DNA from: Basidiobolus meristosporus CBS 931.73
Taxonomy: Eukaryota > Basidiobolomycota > Basidiobolomycetes > Basidiobolales > Basidiobolaceae
DNA: 64,000 nt
NCBI GenBank assembly: GCA_002104905.1
Contig: MCFE01000231.1
Coordinates: forward strand, 57,424 to 121,423
Direction of reading: 5' to 3'
Part shown: piece after piece, positions 49,453 through 64,000 of the stretch
How positions within the stretch are numbered: the stretch's first letter is position 1
How the letters are laid out: every line of letters begins with the position of its first letter
Program-made: the position numbers and the translations under genes
Notes under the pieces: model-generated
What the model was told of the DNA's origin: nothing
Database searches by the model: none
The model's input: only the letters and a program-made list of their open reading frames with translations

Positions 49453-52400
49453 ATGTCTACTACTGCTATTACTGGAATTTTTCCCTCTGCTGAAAAGTTG
49501 GATGGATCCAACAACCAAGTGTGGAAGGTGAAGATGAAGATGCTGCTACAAGAAAGAGGCCTTTGGGATATTGTCATGGGAGAGGAATGCCCTCCTAAAA
49601 ACGTGGGAGAGGAAGCCTTAAAGTACCAGAAGAAAGAACAAAGTGCCTTTAACTGCATTTGCCTTAATGTCAATGACAAATTGCTAATTCAATGCTCAAG
49701 AGCATAAACGGCAAAGAATGCCTGGAAAGCATTAGAAGACACCAACCAGTCATGTTCAGCTGCTAAGAAAATGTATCTGAGACAAAAATTCTTTATTACA
49801 AAGATGCTACCAGGAGAAGAAATGAAAAATCTAATTAACAGAATTACCCTGCTGGTAGATGAAATGAAATCTGTGGGCATACTAACTACTGATGAGGATG
49901 TGATAGTTACCATCCTGAATAGCCTGACAGACAAGTTTCAGGGCCTTGTATCAGCCCTAGAGTCCAGAACTGAAGATTTGACCTTAAATTACGTATATGG
50001 AAGGCTCTTGGATGACAAATTAAGAAAATCAAGCTCCAATAAGAAGGAAGAAGAAAATGCTTTAATAAGCAATGATAACAAACAAAGGAGGTACCCAAGA
50101 CCCTACAAAGGCAACAGCAACCTATTTTGCAACTACTGCAAAAGGAAAGGACACATATCAGACCGGTGTCTCAAAAAAAAGATAATCAGCAAAAGAAGCC
50201 TGAATATGGAAATGCTGCAACAACTGAAGATAGACTATTCATATCTGCACTAAATGTGACCACAAACAAGGATTCTCAGACATGGTACATGGACTCTGGA
50301 GCATCTCAACACTTTACACACCAAAAAGAACTTTTTACCCAATATCAAGAAATTCCAATTAAGAAGGTTTTCATGGGTGACAATAGAACACTTGATGCAG
50401 TGGGAGAAGGAACTATCCAAGTAAACCTTAGAAGCAGTGAAGGAAGCCATACACTGACCTTTAAAGAAGTACTCTATGTACCAGAAATAGCCAAGAACCT
50501 ACTCTCTGTAAGTAAGGCCACAGCAGAAGGACTCAGTTTCAGTTTTGACAATTCTGGATGCAGGATCACTGATCAAAATGGTGCCCATATTACTTCAGGC
50601 ATCAGAGATCAGAATCTATACAAGTTGACTTATATTCCATCATATTTGGAAGCCAATATAAGTAACTTAAATGAAGAAACACCAATGCTTTGGCACAGGA
50701 GATTTGGACACATCAATTTTGATTATTTGCGTAAAATGATCAAAGATCAGCTAATTTCTGGAGTGAAAATTGATCCCCCAGCTAATTTGGAGCACTGTGA
50801 AGCCTGCATATATGGGAAATAAGCCAGACAACCGTTCAAGAGCTCTGGTTTAATCAAAACTAAGAAAAAATCAGATCTAATTCACTCAGATCTGTGTGGA
50901 CCTATACAAAATTTATCCTTAGGCAGGATGAAGTATTTAATCACTTTTATTGATGATTATACAAGATACACATGGGTCTACTTCATGGAGAGAAAGGAAG
51001 AAGCTCTGTCTAAGCTCAGGGAGTTCAAAGCCATGGTGGAGAGAGAAACTGGTGAAAAAATCAAGCAAATACGCTCGGACAATGGTGGAGAATATACCTC
51101 AAAACTCTTCATCCACTTCTGCAAAATTCATGGGATAAAGCAAGAGACTACTGTTCCATACTCCCCACAGCAAAATGGAGTAGCAGAACAAGCTAACAGA
51201 TCAATAACTGATATGGCAAGATCTATGATCCATGATCAAAAATTATCCTATGATTTTTGGGTGGAATCAGTTGCCACTGCTGTATACCTTAAAAATAGGG
51301 GTTATAACAGAATACTTTGTGATTCTACTCCATGTGAAGCATTTCATGGATACAGACCAAGTGCAGAACATCCAAGAATATTTGGGTGTACAGCATATGC
51401 CAAAAAACTGGCCAGATATCAGTCAAAATTTGAGCCAAAAAGTGTAAAATGCATATTTTCGGGCTACTGCAATGAGAGTAAGGCATACAGACTCTACAAT
51501 ACCAAAGCAAAGAAGCTGATCAAATCCAGGGATGTGTTGTTTGATGAAAATTCAAAATTTACACAAAAAATTACATCAGATGATGACAAAAATTTGATCT
51601 CAAGTCCACCAATTGTAAGGATTAAATCAGAGCAAAACAATGAAAATTTTTTCACTACAGAGGACTCTACAACTGTGGTTCAGCCAGAATCAGTGCCTAG
51701 GAATAACCCAGAAGTGATCATTCCAGTATCAAATGCCTGGAGATCCAATCGGACAAGAAATAGCCCAAATTACTATATCAATGAGGGTACAAACTTAGCC
51801 TATGCCTGCTCAGTCCATATTAATGAACCCCAGACTGTAAAAGAGGCCCTAAATAGCTCTCAGACAAGGTTTTGGAGATCTGCAATGACTGAGGAATATC
51901 AGGCCCTAATGGAAAATCAAACTTGGGACTTAGACAAATTACCAATCAACCAAAAATCAATTGGATGCAGACGGGTCTTCAAGACAAAATACAAGGCTGA
52001 TGGTACAATTGAAAGATACTAAGCAAGAATTGTAGCCAAAGGATATTCTCAAGCAAAAGGACTTGACTATACTGAGACCTTTGCACCGGTAGCCAAGTTT
52101 AATTCCACCAGATTAATATTGGCTATTGCAGCCAAATATAAGTTTTTTATTCATCAAATGGATGAAAAAACTGCATTTTTGAATGGAGAACTTGATGAGG
52201 ACGTGTATATGGACCAGTCTGATGGGTTTGTTGACCAAGATAACCCCCATTTGGTCTGCAAGCTTAAAAAGTTACTATCTGGTCTCAAACAATCACCGAG
52301 AGCCTGGAATTGCAAGATAGATTCTTATTTGGGATATTTGAGTTTCAAAAGGAGTAATGCTGACTATAGTATATACTATAAGCCAGATAGAGCAAATCCA

Positions 52401-53387
52401 GTTCTATTAGCTCTATATGTGGATGATCTAATTATAGCTGCCAATAACCTAGCAACATTGGAAGAGACTAAATCCAGCCTATCTAAAGAGTTCAAGATGT
52501 CCAATCTAGGAGAACGCAGTTACTACTCAGGGATTAAGTTCTCCATAGACAGAAGTACCCAGACTATCACCCTAAGTCAATCCAAGTATATTCAAGATAT
52601 ACTAAAGAAGTACAGAATGGAAAACTGTAAACCGGCAGCTGCCCCAATGGAGACAAACCTTGACTTGGTCAAAACTCAGCCAAATCAAGAGAGCTTGGTG
52701 CCATCTGAAAGCCCTGACTTTCCTTATCAATCTATGGTTGGCAGTCTGATGTATATCATGCTTGGAACATGTTGAGATATCTCATATTCAGTGGGAGTTG
52801 TCAGCCAACATAATCAGAACTATGGATCTGATCATATTGCAGCGTTTAAGCGGATTTTTAGATACCTAAAAGGAACTGCTGATATCTGCTTAAGATACAC
52901 TTATAATGATTCAGAACAGGATCTTGTGAGATACTCTGATGATGATTGGGGACAAAATTTGGAAGACAGAAGATCCACCACAGGATACACCTTTCTTGAC
53001 TGTAAAGGAGCAATTTCATGGAATTCAAGAAAGCAACCAATCGTAGCACTTTCCACCACAGAGGCAGAGTATACGGCAGCCTGTGAAGCTACAAAAGAAG
53101 CAATGTGGTTAAGAAAACTCTTTACAGATTTAGGCCTATATCAAAAAACGCCTATTACTTTATTTCAAGATACTCAAGGATGTATACAATTAGGTAGAAA
53201 TCCAACTTTTCATGCTAGAACCAAGCACATAGATATTAGACATCATTTCATACGTGAAGCTATAGGGAATAACTTAGTGTACTGTCCTACAGATGAAATG
53301 ATTGCAGACATATTTACCAAACCATTAGCTAGAGACAAGTTTGAATATCTTAGGTCAAAATTAGGACTAATCAGTATGAACATTTAG
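49453..53387 (+). pseudogene. copia gag-pol, disrupted
   Basis: Gag begins near the ATG at 49453 (MSTTAITGIFPSAEKLDG) and ends in a CCHC knuckle, CNYCKRKGHISDRC (about 50128-50169). Protease has DSGA (WYMDSGASQHFT, about 50283). Integrase has the HHCC zinc site (LWHRRFGHINF ... HCEACIYGK) and the catalytic core (SDNGGEYTSK; Glu in PYSPQQNGVAEQ). RT has YVDDL (about 52418). RNase H has the STTEAEYTAA box, and the polyprotein ends ADIFTKPLARDKFEYLRSKL. Lesions: TAA at 49705-49707, a shift from frame 1 to frame 0 at the run of eight A (50173-50180), TAA at 50820-50822, TAA at 52020-52022 and TGA at 52773-52775. It cannot make a full polyprotein without readthrough. Confidence 0.92.
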
Positions 53388-57415: not shown

Positions 57416-57928
57416 AGCCGTAGATAATCCATTCGTCGCGTACTACCTAACATAGGAATATACCGGTGCCTCATCGATGTGAACATGGTGCACCCAAGTA
57501 CCAATGAACTTGGGTGCTGGCTTCGACGAAAATAGCAAAACATCTATGATAAAACTTCTCAAACAAACCCGGTAGCTTGAGATTAATACAGATCACTGCC
57601 AAATGCAAGACTCATATTTAAATCAGATCTAACCTCCCAAATGGTACTGATAATAACTAAAGGAGAATTTGAGGGCATAGGTGCAAAAAACTCACGCGGT
57701 GGATATACCACATTTGGGATATCAAGATCACCACCAAAACTCCTAATTAGTAGAGACTGACAGGTCAACAACGAAGATAGAGATTAATGGTATGTGCGAT
57801 TTGGCCTCCAGAACGGTGTGGCAATGGTTGATATTACGAATTAAAAGAAAAGACCAATGCTTTTAAAACTTGAAGCGTGATTACCATTGTTCTATATCGA
57901 GCCTGATTAAATATTATTTCATATAGCT

Positions 57929-58237
57929 TTAGCAACATACAGAGTTCTCCCGAAGGTTGGAATCACTACCATTCCGTAAACCAATTATCCAGTATATGGA
58001 TGATACTGTAAATAAGAGATTCTTCTGAGAATATAAAAACACTTTGTCAATGGAAAACCAAATTCTCGCTGTTTTCTGTTGTTTCGATTTCTTTCCATCC
58101 CGTGGATCCAAATTGAACAATCTAGCTAGGGACTTTCCATCCTTAGACTTTAGCTTGGTATGTCCCAGCTCGTTCAATAAACAAAATACAAAAATATCAC
58201 TGGTAAACGTTTTATTCCGTGTTACATTTCGAATCAT
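57929..58237 (-). pseudogene. Subtelomeric minus-strand ORF downstream of copy 3 core
   Basis: 102 codons, reading RNVTRNKTFTSDIFVFCLLN and, later, KDGKSLARLFNLDPRDGKKS. A diverged copy with the same order (VTWNKKLTDDIFVFCLLRVL) is at 56715-56954, so this piece belongs to the repeated unit, too. Function unknown. Confidence 0.45.
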
Positions 58238-58241
58238 CTAC

Positions 58242-58625
58242 GGCCCGGTATTCAGAGATATTCTGACATGAATCGGAATTCAAGTGAGCAGAGCAACTCC
58301 TTTGCAGAATGGTGAGCGCCAGATGGAAGGCTGGGTAACGGAGACCCTGTAGGCGGAATATTCGGCTTAACGGTGAAGGTTTCGGAAGGTGGAAAGTAGT
58401 ACACGGATACGTATTTGACAGCCGTCCTTTTATACTGCGTTCTTCGGTATGGATTTATCCACTCCTGACATGTTGCATCATAGGCTGACGGATCTATACT
58501 GCAGGGTTGTTGTACTCAGCATCCCAGTGGTACTTTGGAGTCAGTCACTTCACTCCAAGCATCTCGAGCCATTTCTATTTTCGCGATGTGGACTAGTTGC
58601 TGTGTGGTGTTGAGTCTAGGTTAAG
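58242..58625 (-). pseudogene. Decayed subtelomeric gene copy 3
   Basis: Contains KIEMARDAWSEVTDSKVPL, then a TGA, then EWINPYRRTQYKRTAVKY. It passes without a stop into VYYFPPSETFTVKPNIPPTG and GAHHSAKELLCSLEF. Here the junction that is closed by TGATGA in copies 1 and 2 is open. This is direct evidence that one longer reading frame once spanned both blocks. Confidence 0.6.
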
Positions 58626-60673
58626 CGGCATCAAATCCGCGAGAATGTACCATGGCCCACAAAAGGCCATAGATAGTCTATTTATTGCACACTATCTAAT
58701 ACTAGAATATACCGATGCCCTGTTGACTGAATGAGTGCACCTATGTTATGGTCAATTTAGACCCTGGCTTCAAAGGCCATTTGTGATTGGACCTACTTGT
58801 GCGCCAAATTCAGATGCCTTCGATCTATACAGAACATTTCAAAAAATAAGACTTGCTCTCCCACAAAGGTATGGATAGTAACTGTGGAAGTATATTTATA
58901 GCATGATCTGGTAAGTAGATTGGTGATAGACGCCAACACTACGGAAATGAACACCTTGGGATATGCCGGATTCGGTGTATCGAGATTGCAAAAATATACC
59001 TACTGCATAAAGATCAACAATGGGGCTAGATAGAGCGTGCGGCCCGATAGTTTTCTGGCTTCGGAGAATAGGATTTGGTCATGATGATACTAAGAATTAA
59101 ACAGAAAAGGCCAATGCTTTTGAAACTTGAAAAGTGAGTTCCGTTGTTCTATATCAAACCGCCAGGATCCCTGGTTGAATATTATTTCATATGGCTTGAG
59201 CAATATACAGTGTTCTCCTAAAGGTTGCCGTACGGTAAATCAATAATCTGATGCAGTGGATATATCGTGGAAATGTATTCTTCGGAGGAGTTAATAGCAC
59301 GTTGCTAGTGGATAAAATTTAGGTTGTTTTTTGTGGGATTGATCTCTTCCAATGCCGTGGACCCAAGTTCAAGACTTTTCATCCTCGTGCTCTAGCTTAG
59401 TATGTGCCAGTAAGCTCAATAAACAAAATACAAAAATATCACTGGTAAACGTTTTATTCCGTGTTACATTTCGAATCAACACAATGATTATATTGACTCA
59501 TCATCTACGGCCCGATGTTAGACATGAATTGAAATTCAAGTGAGCATAGCAACTCCTTTGCAGAATGGGAAGCACCAGACGCAATCCTGGGTAGCGGAGA
59601 CCTTGTAGGCGGAATAATCGGCTTAACGGTGAGGCTTTTGGAAAGTGGAAAGTAGTACAATGTTTGTCAAGCTATACTCCTCATTTTATAGTGCACCTAT
59701 GGCAAGAATTGATCCAGCCCTTGCATGTGGCACCATGGGATGAAAATCTTTGTTCCGGGATTCTGGCCAACATTCTAGCAGCACTGTAGAGTTGGTAATT
59801 GCACTGCTTTGTAGAACACCTACCCTCTCACAATAGTATTGATAGTACCGAAACAAGAATTTTGCTTTATAATTGGTATCTGCTATGAGGTGCCCATATT
59901 CTCCGATTTCTCATATTTGGTATGTCAAGGTTACCAAGGAAATACCTAGTTTGTATTGATTGTGATGATAATTGCCAAGATTGGAATAGAGGGTATGTGC
60001 GGCCCCTCCAATTATTGATGGATTAAGAATACATCCTTTAAAAACAAGATTTGGCCATCGCTGATAATAGCTGCAGAGAAAATACCAATCTTCTTGGGCT
60101 TGGCATGCGAATTCTATTATTTTGAATCTAGGCATCGCAATCCCCAATTAAATCACTAATCGTTTGATTGGAGTCGCTCAGAAATCAACTGTTTGTTAGA
60201 TTCACTGTTATACCATGAACCAATAATCGGGTAAACGGGTGATACAAAACTGCGGATTTTCAATATAGTGGAAGTGAAAGCTTCTGTAGACGTAAAAACA
60301 CGTTGTTAATGGAAAACCAAACTCTCATTGGTTTCAGTAGGTCCAATTTCATCCCTTGTGTTTGGCCCAAGTTCAAAAATCTAGCGATTGCCTTTTCATG
60401 CTCAGACTTTAGCTTATTACGTGTCAGTACGCTCAATAAACAAAATACAAAATATCACTGATATGCGTTTATTCCGTATTGCATTTCTTATCAATACAAT
60501 GATTATATTGACTCATCATCTACAGCCCGGTGTTCAGAGATCATCTGAAACAAGTCGCAAGTCAAGTGGGCATAGCAACCACTGTGCAAAATGGTGAGCT
60601 CCAGATGCAAGACTGAGTAGCAAAGATCTTGTAGGCCAAAATATCAGCTTAATGGCAAGGCTTTGGGAAAGGG

Positions 60674-60687
60674 TTAGGGTTAGGGGA
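60674..60687 (+). repeat. Interstitial telomeric repeat remnant
   Basis: Two TTAGGG units (TTAGGGTTAGGGG) sit exactly between the last subtelomeric unit and the first retroelement stub. This marks a former chromosome end. Confidence 0.85.
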
Positions 60688-60870
60688 GGGAAAGTCACCA
60701 AGTGGTGAAATCTTTATTTACCCATGACAAGTATCTAAAAAAGCCAAGTAAATCTGAAGTTATTCCTAGAAAGCTAGGTCTGAGAGATATCTTCCTGGTA
60801 AGCTAGGTCTGAGAGTTGAGAAGCTGAGTGGTACTATATTTCCTAGTTGGCTAGGTTGGAGAGAGGTTTC
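60684..60870 (-). mobile_element. Telomeric non-LTR element stub 1 (3' end only)
   Basis: About 187 bp. Its left (RNA 3') end is GGGGAGGGAAAGTCACCAAG, with the hairpin TCACC-AAGT-GGTGA (60695-60708). In minus sense an AATAAA lies just before the hairpin. The body differs from stubs 2 and 3 and has its own direct repeat (GCTAGGTCTGAGAG twice), so it comes from a different subfamily. Confidence 0.8.
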
Positions 60871-61014
60871 TTAGGGGAGGGAAAGTCACCAAGTTGGTGA
60901 AATCTTTATTTGAGTTAACAACTAATCTAAGTACAAATAAAGAAGCCGATTAAGAGGTCTAGAACCTTTCTAATAAGTAATCTAATTTATGTTTGTTTCA
61001 TCTCTAATGTTTGG
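60871..61014 (-). mobile_element. Telomeric non-LTR element stub 2 (3' end only)
   Basis: Begins TTAGGGGAGGGAAAGTCACC, with the hairpin TCACC-AAGTT-GGTGA (60886-60900). The body of about 115 bp is nearly identical to stub 3. It is truncated on its 5' side by the next telomeric remnant. Confidence 0.85.
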
Positions 61015-61142
61015 GTTAGGGGGAGGGAAAGTCACCAAGTTGGTGAAATCTTTATTTGAGTTAAGAACTAATCTAAGTACAAATAAAGAAGCCAATTAAG
61101 AGGTCTAGAACCTCTCTAATACGTAATCTAATCTATGTTTTG
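61014..61142 (-). mobile_element. Telomeric non-LTR element stub 3 (3' end only)
   Basis: Begins GGTTAGGGGGAGGGAAAGTC, with the hairpin TCACC-AAGTT-GGTGA (61032-61046). It differs from stub 2 at only a handful of positions (for example GTTAAGAACTAATC against GTTAACAACTAATC). It is truncated on its 5' side at TTAGGGGG. Confidence 0.85.
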
Positions 61143-63795
61143 TTAGGGGGGGGAGACAGTCACCAACAGGTGAAATCTTTATTTCAGTTGAAACAAAGAA
61201 GCCAGCGCTACTGTTGTAGCTTTGATACAAGAGTGTGTAGCTGAGGGGAATTTGTAGGTAAGTTAATAAGAAGTGATGATAGTTCTTCAGTGCTCAAGAC
61301 ACTGTTCAGTGGGAAGGGGGGTAGCAAGAGAGGTAAGAATGACTTGTGAACAACATTAATGAGGGGAATGTGATAAGGATTGATATTCATCATAAAGGGA
61401 GTGTGCTGCTGCAGATATTGCTGCCAAAGGTCTGTCAAGTACTTCAGGTAGGCCAGCTTGGGTTTTTCTGACTGCAGAATATAGTGAGCAAACTTCTTGA
61501 CTTCAGGATCTCCAAGTATAGTTCTCCAGCAGGAGCCAGGTGTTGTGTGGTGTGTTCTCTTCCAGGCCTTAATCAGTGGGTTGTTGCAGTTGTGAAGTCT
61601 GAGGTATAATCTGGTTCTAAGGTAGAGAAGTCTAATCTTATAGGGCATAAACCCAAAAGCACCAAGAATAGCATGTCTGTAGGGGCATTCAGGCAAATGA
61701 GGCACCAAGGAGGTAATGCACCATACTGCAAACTTGTCAAGCTTAGTGCAGTCTCTAGAAGTAAGAGAGAGAAGTGGTAAGCCAAATTCCAGGACAGGGA
61801 AGACAAACTGCTTGAGTAGAAGGAGGCAGCTGGGAGCTGAAGTTGTAGGAGGAGTAACAGCCAGTAGCTTGTGGAGTGCCTGTCTTGCCAGGATAATTCT
61901 CTTCTTCAGGTGTGCTCCAGAGTCTAGTCCAGTAGGAAGGAAAGGAAAGCCAAGATATGTAGCAGAAACCTGAGCAGGTAGAGTGGAGTTCTCCAAGTTG
62001 ATGGGAGAGCCCAAAGGTACTGTCTTTGCAATGGAAAGCTGGAGATTATTCTTCTGCAGATACTGGTGGATGGCCTGGGAGTCTTGTTGCACATTGGAGG
62101 AGGATATTCTGATGTCATCAGCAAAGAGAGTAACCAGGCAGTCAGCTGAGAGTCTTGGGAAATCATTCAGGAAGATGGCAAACAGTATAGGACCAAGCAC
62201 AGAGCCTTGAACCACTCCATTAGGAACTGAGAACACAGCTGATTGCTCACTTGGGTGCAGAATTCTTGCTTGTGGATCCAGAAACAGAGACCTGACAAGG
62301 AGGGTGAGAGAGGTACTGGAGAAGCATTGCAACTTGGACCAAAGCAGATTTCTGTCAACTGAATCAAAGGCCTTAGTAATATCAAACAGAACAGAGGGAT
62401 ACTTGCACTGGAGAGAGTGATCTTGGCTAAGTATGACTGCATATTCCAAGGAGAGGCCAGGAACAAAGCCAAACTGTGCAGGATGAAACTTGAGAGAGTC
62501 AGAGTAGAGCTCCTGAGCAAGCAGAAGCTCAAACACCTTTCTGCAGGTGGGCAGCAGAGATATTGGCCTGTAGGAGCTAGGATCCAGGTGCTTTCCTTTA
62601 CCCTTGTACAGTGGCAGAACATTTGCAAAGGACCATTCCTCAGGAGTAGAAAGCTGGGCTGAGCATTGCTGAAACAGTGGAAGCAGAAGTGCAGACATGG
62701 CGTTGGTACTAGTCTTCAGAAGCTCATAGGAGATTGTGTCCACACCTGGAGCAGTAGAGTTGGGAAGCCTCTTGAGCACATTATGGATTCTCCTTTGATC
62801 AAGTGCAAGTGGGATGGGCAGAGTCTTGAAGTCAGGATGAAAGCCAGGAGTTGAGTACTGCTTTGTAGAGAAGAAGATGTTAGCCAGCTGTTCTGTTGAA
62901 GGTAACTTCCTGGAAGAGGGCCTCATTGCCCTGTAGAGTCTTGATACTGTTCTTGTTATAGAGTTGGAAGATTGCAGAGGCAAGGAACTCATAATATGAT
63001 CCCAGAGCTGAGTATGCAGAGTGTGGTGAATTGCCTTGGAGTGGTGTATTGCTGTCAGGAGGAGTTTCTCTGTTTTTGGGTTAGGGAAGCTCAGGTAGCT
63101 TTGTTGCAGGGCTGAAACAATGGATTCCCATTTCCTTGAGGTAACAGCAGTAGTCTTGCATGGCAGTGAGAGGGAGGCAGACACCAGAATCAGATGCTTC
63201 ACAAAGAGCCAGGCAAAGTTGAGATCATCTGGCAGAGAAAGTAGCAAACTGGCAAGCTTCAAGTAGTTCCCAAAGTCTTTCTTCTGATTCTTGGTAGCTT
63301 TGTGGGTGAGCACAGTAAGTTTTGGCAGCTTCTTCTTCACAACTGGTTGCATAGAAAGGGACCAGGCTGGGTGGTCAGAGGCTCTCAAGGATCCTAGCTC
63401 AGCTCCAGAGAATTGCTTAACTTCATTCACAAAGTAGAGGGCAGCAGCAGAAGGGCAGATCCAGTCAACACATCTTTTCTCAGATTGAGCACCTAGTGCT
63501 AGCAGATGGCTTTCTCTCAGGAAGTTCAGTAGGAATGTAGACCTTGGCTTCATTCTTGCAGTCAGAGTAGTCTTGTTCTCAGGATGGGGAATGTTGAGAT
63601 CTCCAAGCAAGATAATAGGTGTTGATATAGATTGCTGGTATTGCTGAACTTTCTGGCATATAACTTGCACTTCCTGAAGGGCAAGACTTGGAGGCAGATA
63701 GCAGAGCACCAGACTGATAGTTGGCAACTGGAGAGCAGCACAGTAAGGGGAGTAAAGAGGAACACAGAGCTGAGGAGTATTGATGGTAGGGTAGA
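61143..63795 (-). mobile_element. Telomere-attached non-LTR retrotransposon, 5'-truncated
   Basis: About 2.65 kb in minus sense. The RNA 3' end is at 61143 (TTAGGGGGGGGAGACAGTCA), with the hairpin TCACC-AACA-GGTGA (61160-61173) and an AATAAA just inside it. One long open frame follows, ending at 61208 on the left. The right (5') end is cut off by the terminal TTAGGG array, so any ORF1 and the first half of the endonuclease are missing. No poly(A) is present at the 3' junction. Confidence 0.92.
61208..63795 (-). CDS. AP-endonuclease (partial) / reverse transcriptase of telomeric element
   Basis: An uninterrupted frame of at least 860 codons. The 839 codons from 63727 are open, and the frame runs upstream to the telomere. 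The N-terminal part is the second half of an exonuclease-endonuclease-phosphatase (APE-like) endonuclease: VPLYSPYCAALQLP, the GDxN motif IILLGDLNIPHP (about 63600), and the SDH-type motif ASDHPAWSLSM (about 63375). The RT follows, with SYRPISLLPTCRKVFELLL, LFDITKAFDSVDRNLLW, NGVVQGSVLGPILFAIFL and the catalytic FADD box (FADDIRIS, about 62120). The thumb region and a C-terminal extension of about 200 residues follow. I see no RNase H domain and no zinc knuckle. Absence of stops in such a long frame suggests recent activity. Confidence 0.93.
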
Positions 63796-64000
63796 GGGTT
63801 AGGGTTAGGGTTAGGGTTAGGGTTAGGGTTAGGGTTAGGGTTAGGGTTAGGGTTAGGGTTAGGGTTAGGGTTAGGGTTAGGGTTAGGGTTAGGGTTAGGG
63901 TTAGGGTTAGGGTTAGGGTTAGGGTTAGGGTTAGGGTTAGGGTTAGGGTTAGGGTTAGGGTTAGGGTTAGGGTTAGGGTTAGGGTTAGGGTTAGGGTTAG
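63796..64000 (+). repeat. Telomere, (TTAGGG)n
   Basis: About 34 perfect TTAGGG units running to the window edge, G-rich strand 5' to 3' to the right, as expected for the right end of a chromosome. They follow retroelement sequence at GGTAGGGTAGAGGGTTAGGG without a transition zone. Confidence 0.98.

Follow-up and report, generated by a model that had tools for sequence, protein, structure and literature searches.

Telomere-attached LINE arrays of Basidiobolus meristosporus suggest that reverse-transcribed elements and telomerase both build chromosome ends

We analysed the end of contig MCFE01000231.1 of the fungus Basidiobolus meristosporus CBS 931.73 (assembly GCA_002104905.1). The stretch under study, hereafter the window, is the final 64,000 bases of this contig of 121,423 bp, and the end of the window is the end of the contig. 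The first database matches of a transporter gene in the window are Basidiobolus proteins, and the B. meristosporus CBS 931.73 protein P0090 matches contig C587 of the same assembly in two exons (99% and 95%). Four non-long-terminal-repeat (non-LTR) retrotransposons lie there inside a terminal telomere array, all of them head-to-tail and minus-sense, with the RNA 5' side outward and the RNA 3' end on the centromere side. From this and the genome-wide results given below, the chromosome ends of this fungus appear to be built by reverse-transcribed elements as well as by telomerase. The initial annotation had described the four elements, the one or two telomeric units between them and the terminal TTAGGG cap, and all this was confirmed in the window. 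The head-to-tail order stands, but not the view of a single element family, which was ruled out by BLAST. Actually three families are present, namely, from the end inward, a long interspersed nuclear element (LINE) that we call A, two fragments of a second LINE (B) and one element (C) resembling a short interspersed nuclear element (SINE). The features are listed by window position, with ORF standing for open reading frame, UTR for untranslated region and aa for amino acids.

63795..64000, plus strand: terminal telomere array (TTAGGG)34.3, 100% match, up to the contig end
61149..63794, minus strand: LINE A, 5'-truncated, consisting of the 3' UTR with its hairpin and the body of ORF2; the broken end is capped by the telomere
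61208..63789, minus strand: ORF2 of LINE A, stop codon at 61208-61210, open up to the truncation point (862 aa searched)
63371..63715, minus strand: C-terminal part of an APE-type endonuclease with the motifs GDLN, CVDW and SDH (PF14529, E=2.9e-4, below the Pfam cut-off)
61943..62581, minus strand: reverse transcriptase domain with FADD (PF00078, E=2.8e-25)
61148..61184, minus strand: LINE A 3' terminal signal, in which AAATAAAG is followed by the hairpin TCACC-GGTGA
61143..61148, plus strand: one TTAGGG unit, the join between B and A
61022..61142, minus strand: second, shorter 3' fragment of family B (BLAST 98.3% over 120 bp)
61016..61021, plus strand: one TTAGGG unit, with GGG before it, joining both B fragments
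60877..61015, minus strand: 3' fragment of family B (BLAST 97.1% over 136 columns)
60871..60876, plus strand: one TTAGGG unit, the join between C and B
60686..60870, minus strand: family C, SINE-like, 5'-truncated, without its tRNA-like head here, 5' side towards the telomere
60683-60719, 60874-60910 and 61020-61056, minus strand: the same 3' terminal signal on the other three elements
60674..60685, plus strand: two TTAGGG units between the subtelomeric DNA and the innermost element

In the window the shared 3' end is found at 60683, 60874, 61020 and 61148, always minus-sense. When the entire window was compared by BLAST with six reference pieces from these families, nothing before 60683 matched. 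The C fragment matches positions 4-185 of the 521 of the C reference (BLAST 95.6%), and the LINE A fragment matches 2,640 of the 4,565 bp of a copy on another contig (L061; BLAST 99.0%). In the window copy of A, ORF1 is missing and ORF2 has lost its first ~62 codons, the break being 187 bp short of the ORF2 start.

In the L061 copy LINE A is about 4.57 kb long. It consists of ORF1 (502 aa), an in-frame UGA-CUA stop and, in the same frame, ORF2 (922 aa), which carries an APE-type endonuclease and a reverse transcriptase (RT). ORF1 begins with a zinc-ribbon-like CPNCG segment, followed by a coiled-coil-like stretch and a C-terminal domain. Its start was matched 50 times in the genome, and its length of 502 aa follows from the start-to-stop spacing, which is 1,496 bases for 22 of the 36 places where start and stop were paired. 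Regarding the stop between the two frames, a search with the six bases left free gave 131 places; UGA stands at each of the 100 listed (UGACUA at 99, UGAUUA at one), a conservation that by itself is weak evidence because the copies differ by only about 0.6%. The first methionine of ORF2 does not come before residue 142, beyond the GDLN motif, so that a start at AUG would cost half of the endonuclease. Readthrough is known to occur in the context UGA-CUA, and ORF1 and ORF2 of A are probably made as one chain by readthrough of this stop. UGA-CUA readthrough in fungi is a subject of PMC4207609. The 5' UTR of A also has, apparently, two internal TTAGGG units (L061:5666-5677), around 160 bp from the recurrent 5' end.

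The domains of ORF2 are those of a LINE, an N-terminal APE-like endonuclease and an RT whose best matches are LINE ORF2p. A Pfam scan of three proteins of the family gave only RT and endonuclease/phosphatase families, and neither the zinc motif nor the RHD/N motif of restriction-like endonucleases was found by pattern search in A and its five database relatives (P0001-P0005). In the alignment rows that cover them, the catalytic residues N, E, Y, D, N, D and S/D/H are kept with one exception: at the metal site, P0001, P0003 and the Basidiobolus copies have Asp in place of the Glu found in all the 41 other rows with a letter there. A loss of the endonuclease, suspected from this absent Glu, was rejected because the position is Asp and the other catalytic columns are kept. 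The fold was modelled for P0001, a 63% identical relative taken as stand-in for the Basidiobolus protein; a first model from 6 sequences (predicted local distance difference test, pLDDT, 42.6) was not used, and the endonuclease alignment had no significant match among PDB sequences (best E 1.1). As modelled, the endonuclease of A keeps the APE fold and the catalytic columns, which supports the APE type assigned by the initial annotation and points to DNA nicking.

Two of the other families code for proteins. B is the second LINE, and the 517 aa of its RT part in L041 share 51.7% identity with A and 68.9% with P0005. D is about 1.0-1.2 kb long and its sole product is an ORF1-like protein, of 242 aa in L042, which is 36% identical to the C-terminal region of ORF1 of A over 162 aa. 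A hand count of the best-match rows gave 66 stop-free copies among 70 full-length matches to the 242-aa ORF, a proportion biased toward intactness because the copies come from a best-match list. In the 5' region of D, a unit of about 101 bp with runs of GGATGGATGGA is repeated in tandem in variable copy number (L069, L081, L083, L061:6700-7000).

Family C, of about 0.5 kb, ends in the 3' tail that it has in common with the LINEs. Its 5' 70 bases hold TAGCCTTGTGG and GGTTCAAATC, which a pattern search found to be A-box-like and B-box-like respectively, and this head occurs at 181 exact genomic places. Neither ARAGORN nor Rfam called a tRNA in the head, so that a tRNA derivation of C would be based only on these RNA polymerase III-like boxes. 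The initial annotation had missed that the array holds at least three families, and that ORF1-only and SINE-like partners exist in the genome.

The 3' end common to A, B, C and D consists of AAATAAAGATTTCACC...GGTGACT, a hairpin and a C-run ahead of CCCTAA. When five typed ends were folded, the z score was -3.4 for A and between -1.5 and -3.0 for the ends of four other families. A further recurrent sequence, TGTAGGTGTTATAGTAAGGG..., begins right at TTAGGG in L076 and in the flanks of L040, L046 and L053; it may mark an additional telomere-attached family whose 3' end differs.

We then consider the whole assembly (1,311 contigs; 89,006,234 bases). Genome-wide, the pattern of the shared 3' end has 1,512 matches (1,391 minus, 121 plus), against 0 for the reversed pattern, hence its recurrence is not due to chance. 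Regarding the RT, we took the best-scoring 53 of 1,394 candidate places, and for 52 of these 53 copies the contig end faced by their RNA 5' side is 90 to 8,087 bp away, that is, within 8.1 kb. On contigs of at least 40 kb, 44 of 45 copies lie within 12 kb of the faced end, where the mean chance is 0.10 per copy. Among the first 100 of the 1,512 3' ends, those on the 11 longest contigs (2.15 Mb) all lie within 22.2 kb of the faced end (37/37), and the other 63 are on contigs of 17.7-20 kb, which are too short to separate end from interior. Thus the observation is confirmed as real and genome-wide, and the search of the 3' end and RT proposed by the initial annotation bears out its polarity and telomere attachment. 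The contrary pattern that it had named, internal copies with poly(A) tails at random targets, was not seen: only one RT copy is away from the faced end, and 0 of 114 distinct 3' ends have a run of eight Ts within 40 bp on the centromere side. We therefore reject the dispersed insertion of a poly(A) LINE at random as the main account.

The telomere arrays show a strand bias, with 6,568 plus against 68 minus pattern matches. Since the 3' ends are biased likewise, the contigs appear to be written with the telomere at the right, and the plus-strand count suggests around 200 or more arrays and hence many chromosomes. This odd bias and the fragmentation of the assembly could lead one to think that unrelated repeats and telomere reads had been misjoined. 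Nevertheless, the same joins occur on dozens of contigs with unlike flanks, the 3' end place and polarity are constant in 110 junctions and the reading frames stay open, so such an artefact is highly improbable.

The fungus also has a telomerase gene, as the initial annotation had supposed: two exons of TERT match PF12009 over the cut-off (C880:173109-173423). The distance from these exons to a contig end bearing a D element (C880:190657; contig of 193,232 bp) is about 20 kb.

In order to know what adjoins the telomeres, we sampled arrays of at least 5 units; of 111 array starts 100 were listed, and one in five of these was taken (n=20), with about 600 bases inside each. By BLAST, 15 of the 20 arrays adjoin A, C or D. 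Two more adjoin ORF1-type coding DNA, which matches the D protein in L066 (46%, 185 aa) and the N-terminus of ORF1 of A in L073 (33%, 85 aa), for a total of 17/20. A further one, L076, has A within 600 bp of the array. A copia fragment (L065) and a pair of host tRNA genes (L067) are capped directly, with no LINE in the last 600 bp, as is expected if telomerase also heals breaks. The sampled array of contig C337 is not the outermost of its contig, because a second array lies 614 bp further out. The terminal arrays have 24-36 TTAGGG units.

Regarding the relatives of A and B, only five database proteins were found, P0001-P0005, which are 48-80% identical and come from metagenome-type sources. 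All the other database matches reach at most about 30% identity and cover part of the protein, and a deeper protein search added no member to the clade, named or otherwise. In an 80-row tree A, B and P0001-P0005 form one clade (100/100) with a stem of 1.76 changes per site; the 78 database matches include no labelled R1, TART or Jockey RT.

Coding selection was measured as pN/pS, the ratio of nonsynonymous to synonymous change. For A it was 0.30 in fragments from the 20 sampled arrays (22 nonsynonymous, 23 synonymous) and 0.40 in fragments from 29 loci fetched for B (73 nonsynonymous, 58 synonymous, 5 stops), both from fragments not chosen for A. The 30 best-scoring of the 53 RT copies of A gave 0.21 with a mean divergence of 0.6%, a value biased low because they are the best of copies that are themselves the best of 1,394 candidates. 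D fragments gave 0.30 (95 nonsynonymous, 96 synonymous, 4 stops), and judging from this ratio family D is under purifying selection. Most copies are dead after truncation and even so pN/pS is below 1, which means that coding masters were recently at work, also in the ORF1-only family. The community of telomere retrotransposons is recently active.

These results bear on another explanation, in which the arrays were mostly copied between ends by recombination or break-induced replication and retrotransposition was rare or is over. It would fit the near-identical copies on many ends (the 0.6% of the 30 best-scoring), as well as the same element order being repeated in some arrays, and recombination does occur in MoTeR arrays according to PMC7367193. 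However, truncation points and neighbours vary from end to end with the TTAGGG join made anew each time, the pN/pS of 0.30-0.40 calls for a coding master, and four families of unlike length with a common 3' signal are explained by retrotransposition and not by recombination. We consider it improbable as the main source of the arrays.

The mode of end attachment is the main point of interest, and it can be read from the joins, for which the 1,512 3' ends give a scale that allows statistics on individual joins. Both sides of the elements touch TTAGGG. In 110 distinct 3' junctions the telomeric-phase bases ahead of the G-run were 0-19, with a mode of 3; they were at most 3 in 39 junctions, at most 5 in 58, at most 9 in 100 and at most 11 in 102. 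Small peaks at 3, 5, 7 and 9 bases would fit copying from a short RNA tail like UAACCCUAA. The proximal tracts have 0-3.7 units, head-to-tail arrays being joined by 0 to 3.7 TTAGGG units with one unit as the commonest join. Past the 3' junction there follows a truncated element, the 5' end of a full element (for C, ...GTGTTCTTGG) or other DNA.

We think it somewhat probable that these telomere-attached non-LTR retrotransposons extend chromosome ends, which telomerase then caps. The RNA of A, and of B, would end in the hairpin, C-runs and about one CCCUAA unit, as the DNA junctions indicate. The ORF1p/ORF2p machinery would carry this RNA to an uncapped or very short, eroded chromosome end, and would also take the RNAs of D and C in trans via the same 3' end. 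There, the 3' end of the G-strand would pair with CCCUAA and prime reverse transcription outward, as polarity and junctions suggest. The new end would often be incomplete on the RNA 5' side or be eroded later, the 5' truncation itself being observed. The truncated end would then be capped by telomerase with around 34 TTAGGG units or lengthened by the next element. The fungus would thus have telomerase plus element-based end lengthening.

The main rival is that the APE domain nicks double-stranded TTAGGG repeats and the nick primes the RT, as in TRAS/SART, the long proximal tracts being lost later. The retained endonuclease fits this, and so may a later loss, since in Magnaporthe interstitial tracts of at least 3 units are reported to break while the stable ones hold at most two (PMC7367193). 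Nevertheless, elements landing at random in arrays of 24-36 units, or uniformly in arrays of about 200 bp, should often leave long proximal tracts, and none of the 110 junctions exceeds 19 bp, which favours end extension over repeat targeting. Furthermore, SART1 is reported to need a target of at least 3 repeats and to be inactive at the chromosome end (PMC7265360), whereas the commonest join here is one unit, and the joins reported for MoTeR go from half a unit to more than 20 (PMC7367193) and the 3' joins of FoTeR from 3.0 units up (PMC12857005). Repeat nicking therefore seems to us possible but rather doubtful.

Several points weigh against the extension of ends by these elements. Extension is read from the DNA sequence, and the CCCUAA of the RNA is deduced solely from the DNA junctions. 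ORF2 retains the APE fold, as modelled, and the catalytic columns, which points to DNA nicking; TART presents the same puzzle, keeping its endonuclease despite its presumed action at ends (PMC5537684). The short tracts could be the survivors of a later loss like that of Magnaporthe, and recombination or break-induced replication may have spread some of the copies. A single RT copy (C726:56642-59221, L018) lies 56.6 kb from the faced end, with its 5' side fused to an internal copia fragment. Finally, repeats can themselves cause contig ends, although this leaves the polarity and the attached telomere arrays unexplained.

Telomeric LINEs are usually viewed either as replacing telomerase, as in Drosophila, or as living within telomerase repeats, as in the silkworm and Magnaporthe. 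The Basidiobolus arrays have joins like the Drosophila type and caps like the silkworm/Magnaporthe type in one genome. As in HeT-A/TART/TAHRE, the arrays are head-to-tail in one orientation with 5' truncation, and a Gag(ORF1)-only partner, here D, stands beside an element with APE and RT (PMC5537684). The rule that such arrays are never interior holds for 52 of the 53 RT copies, the exception being that on C726. In contrast to Drosophila, TTAGGG arrays and TERT exons are present, and so telomerase has not been replaced; moreover, the 3' joins are with TTAGGG, no poly(A) was found at the 3' ends, the 3' hairpin is common to all families and there is a SINE-like partner.

TRAS/SART of Bombyx and Tribolium are likewise APE-type LINEs in telomeres that keep their repeats (PMC7265360, PMC5537684). 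Those cut inside the repeats, whereas here the joins have 0-3.7 units, and as joins of 0-19 bp favour the extension of eroded ends, the comparison of mechanism with SART/TRAS may not fit. MoTeR1/MoTeR2 of Magnaporthe, FoTeR of Fusarium and CNL1 of Cryptococcus are reported as fungal telomeric LINEs with the 5' end towards the chromosome end, and MoTeR has a non-autonomous partner with common ends (PMC7367193, PMC12857005). MoTeR1 and FoTeR carry a restriction-like endonuclease (PMC7367193, PMC12857005), as the initial annotation stated for MoTeR, and the RT of CNL1 groups with R2/MoTeR (PMC12810828). The Basidiobolus element differs in its N-terminal APE-type endonuclease, its two ORFs and joins shorter than those of MoTeR, and the C-terminal restriction-like endonuclease with CCHC motif of the MoTeR/FoTeR/CRE-like group was not found in it. 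It thus gives an APE-type case in fungi, where the telomeric LINEs described in these sources (MoTeR1, FoTeR, CNL1) are R2/CRE-like. Athena and other telomeric Penelope-like retroelements also sit on chromosome ends alongside telomerase, and are described as lacking an endonuclease (PMC5537684); here there is an APE domain and an RT closest to LINE ORF2p.

LINE/SINE pairs with a shared 3' tail, formed by so-called stringent LINEs, are a known concept. The SINE-like C, with its tRNA-like head, similarly ends in the LINE 3' hairpin, and this pair differs in sitting at telomeres. Our searches of the open literature found neither an APE-type fungal telomeric LINE nor such a consortium with SINE and ORF1-only partners, nor any Basidiobolus telomere elements. 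The selected Gag-only family beside a LINE looks like an independent parallel to HeT-A/TART and bears on the evolution of helpers; the SINE-like telomere passenger and the ORF1-UGA-CUA-ORF2 arrangement are further testable points.

More tentatively, the system may be a second, telomerase-like one that mends ends, in which a CCCUAA-tailed APE-LINE copies itself, its Gag-only helper and the SINE directly onto eroded, near-repeat-free ends; each added element would leave a telomere seed that telomerase then lengthens. We hold this fuller proposal to be a reasonable possibility, short of an even chance. If it is true, a Drosophila-type three-part community and telomerase work in one genome, with a LINE lineage that has no close named relative in the searches made.

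Two other features of the window were observed. Subtelomeric direct repeats of about 1.0-1.26 kb, which are 88%, 74% and 68% alike in places, lie at 57843-60685 and adjoin the array inward. Further inside, at 49708-53387, there is a Ty1/copia-type element in several open stretches, in which a gag-like zinc knuckle, an integrase, an RT and an RNase H-like domain were identified by eye.

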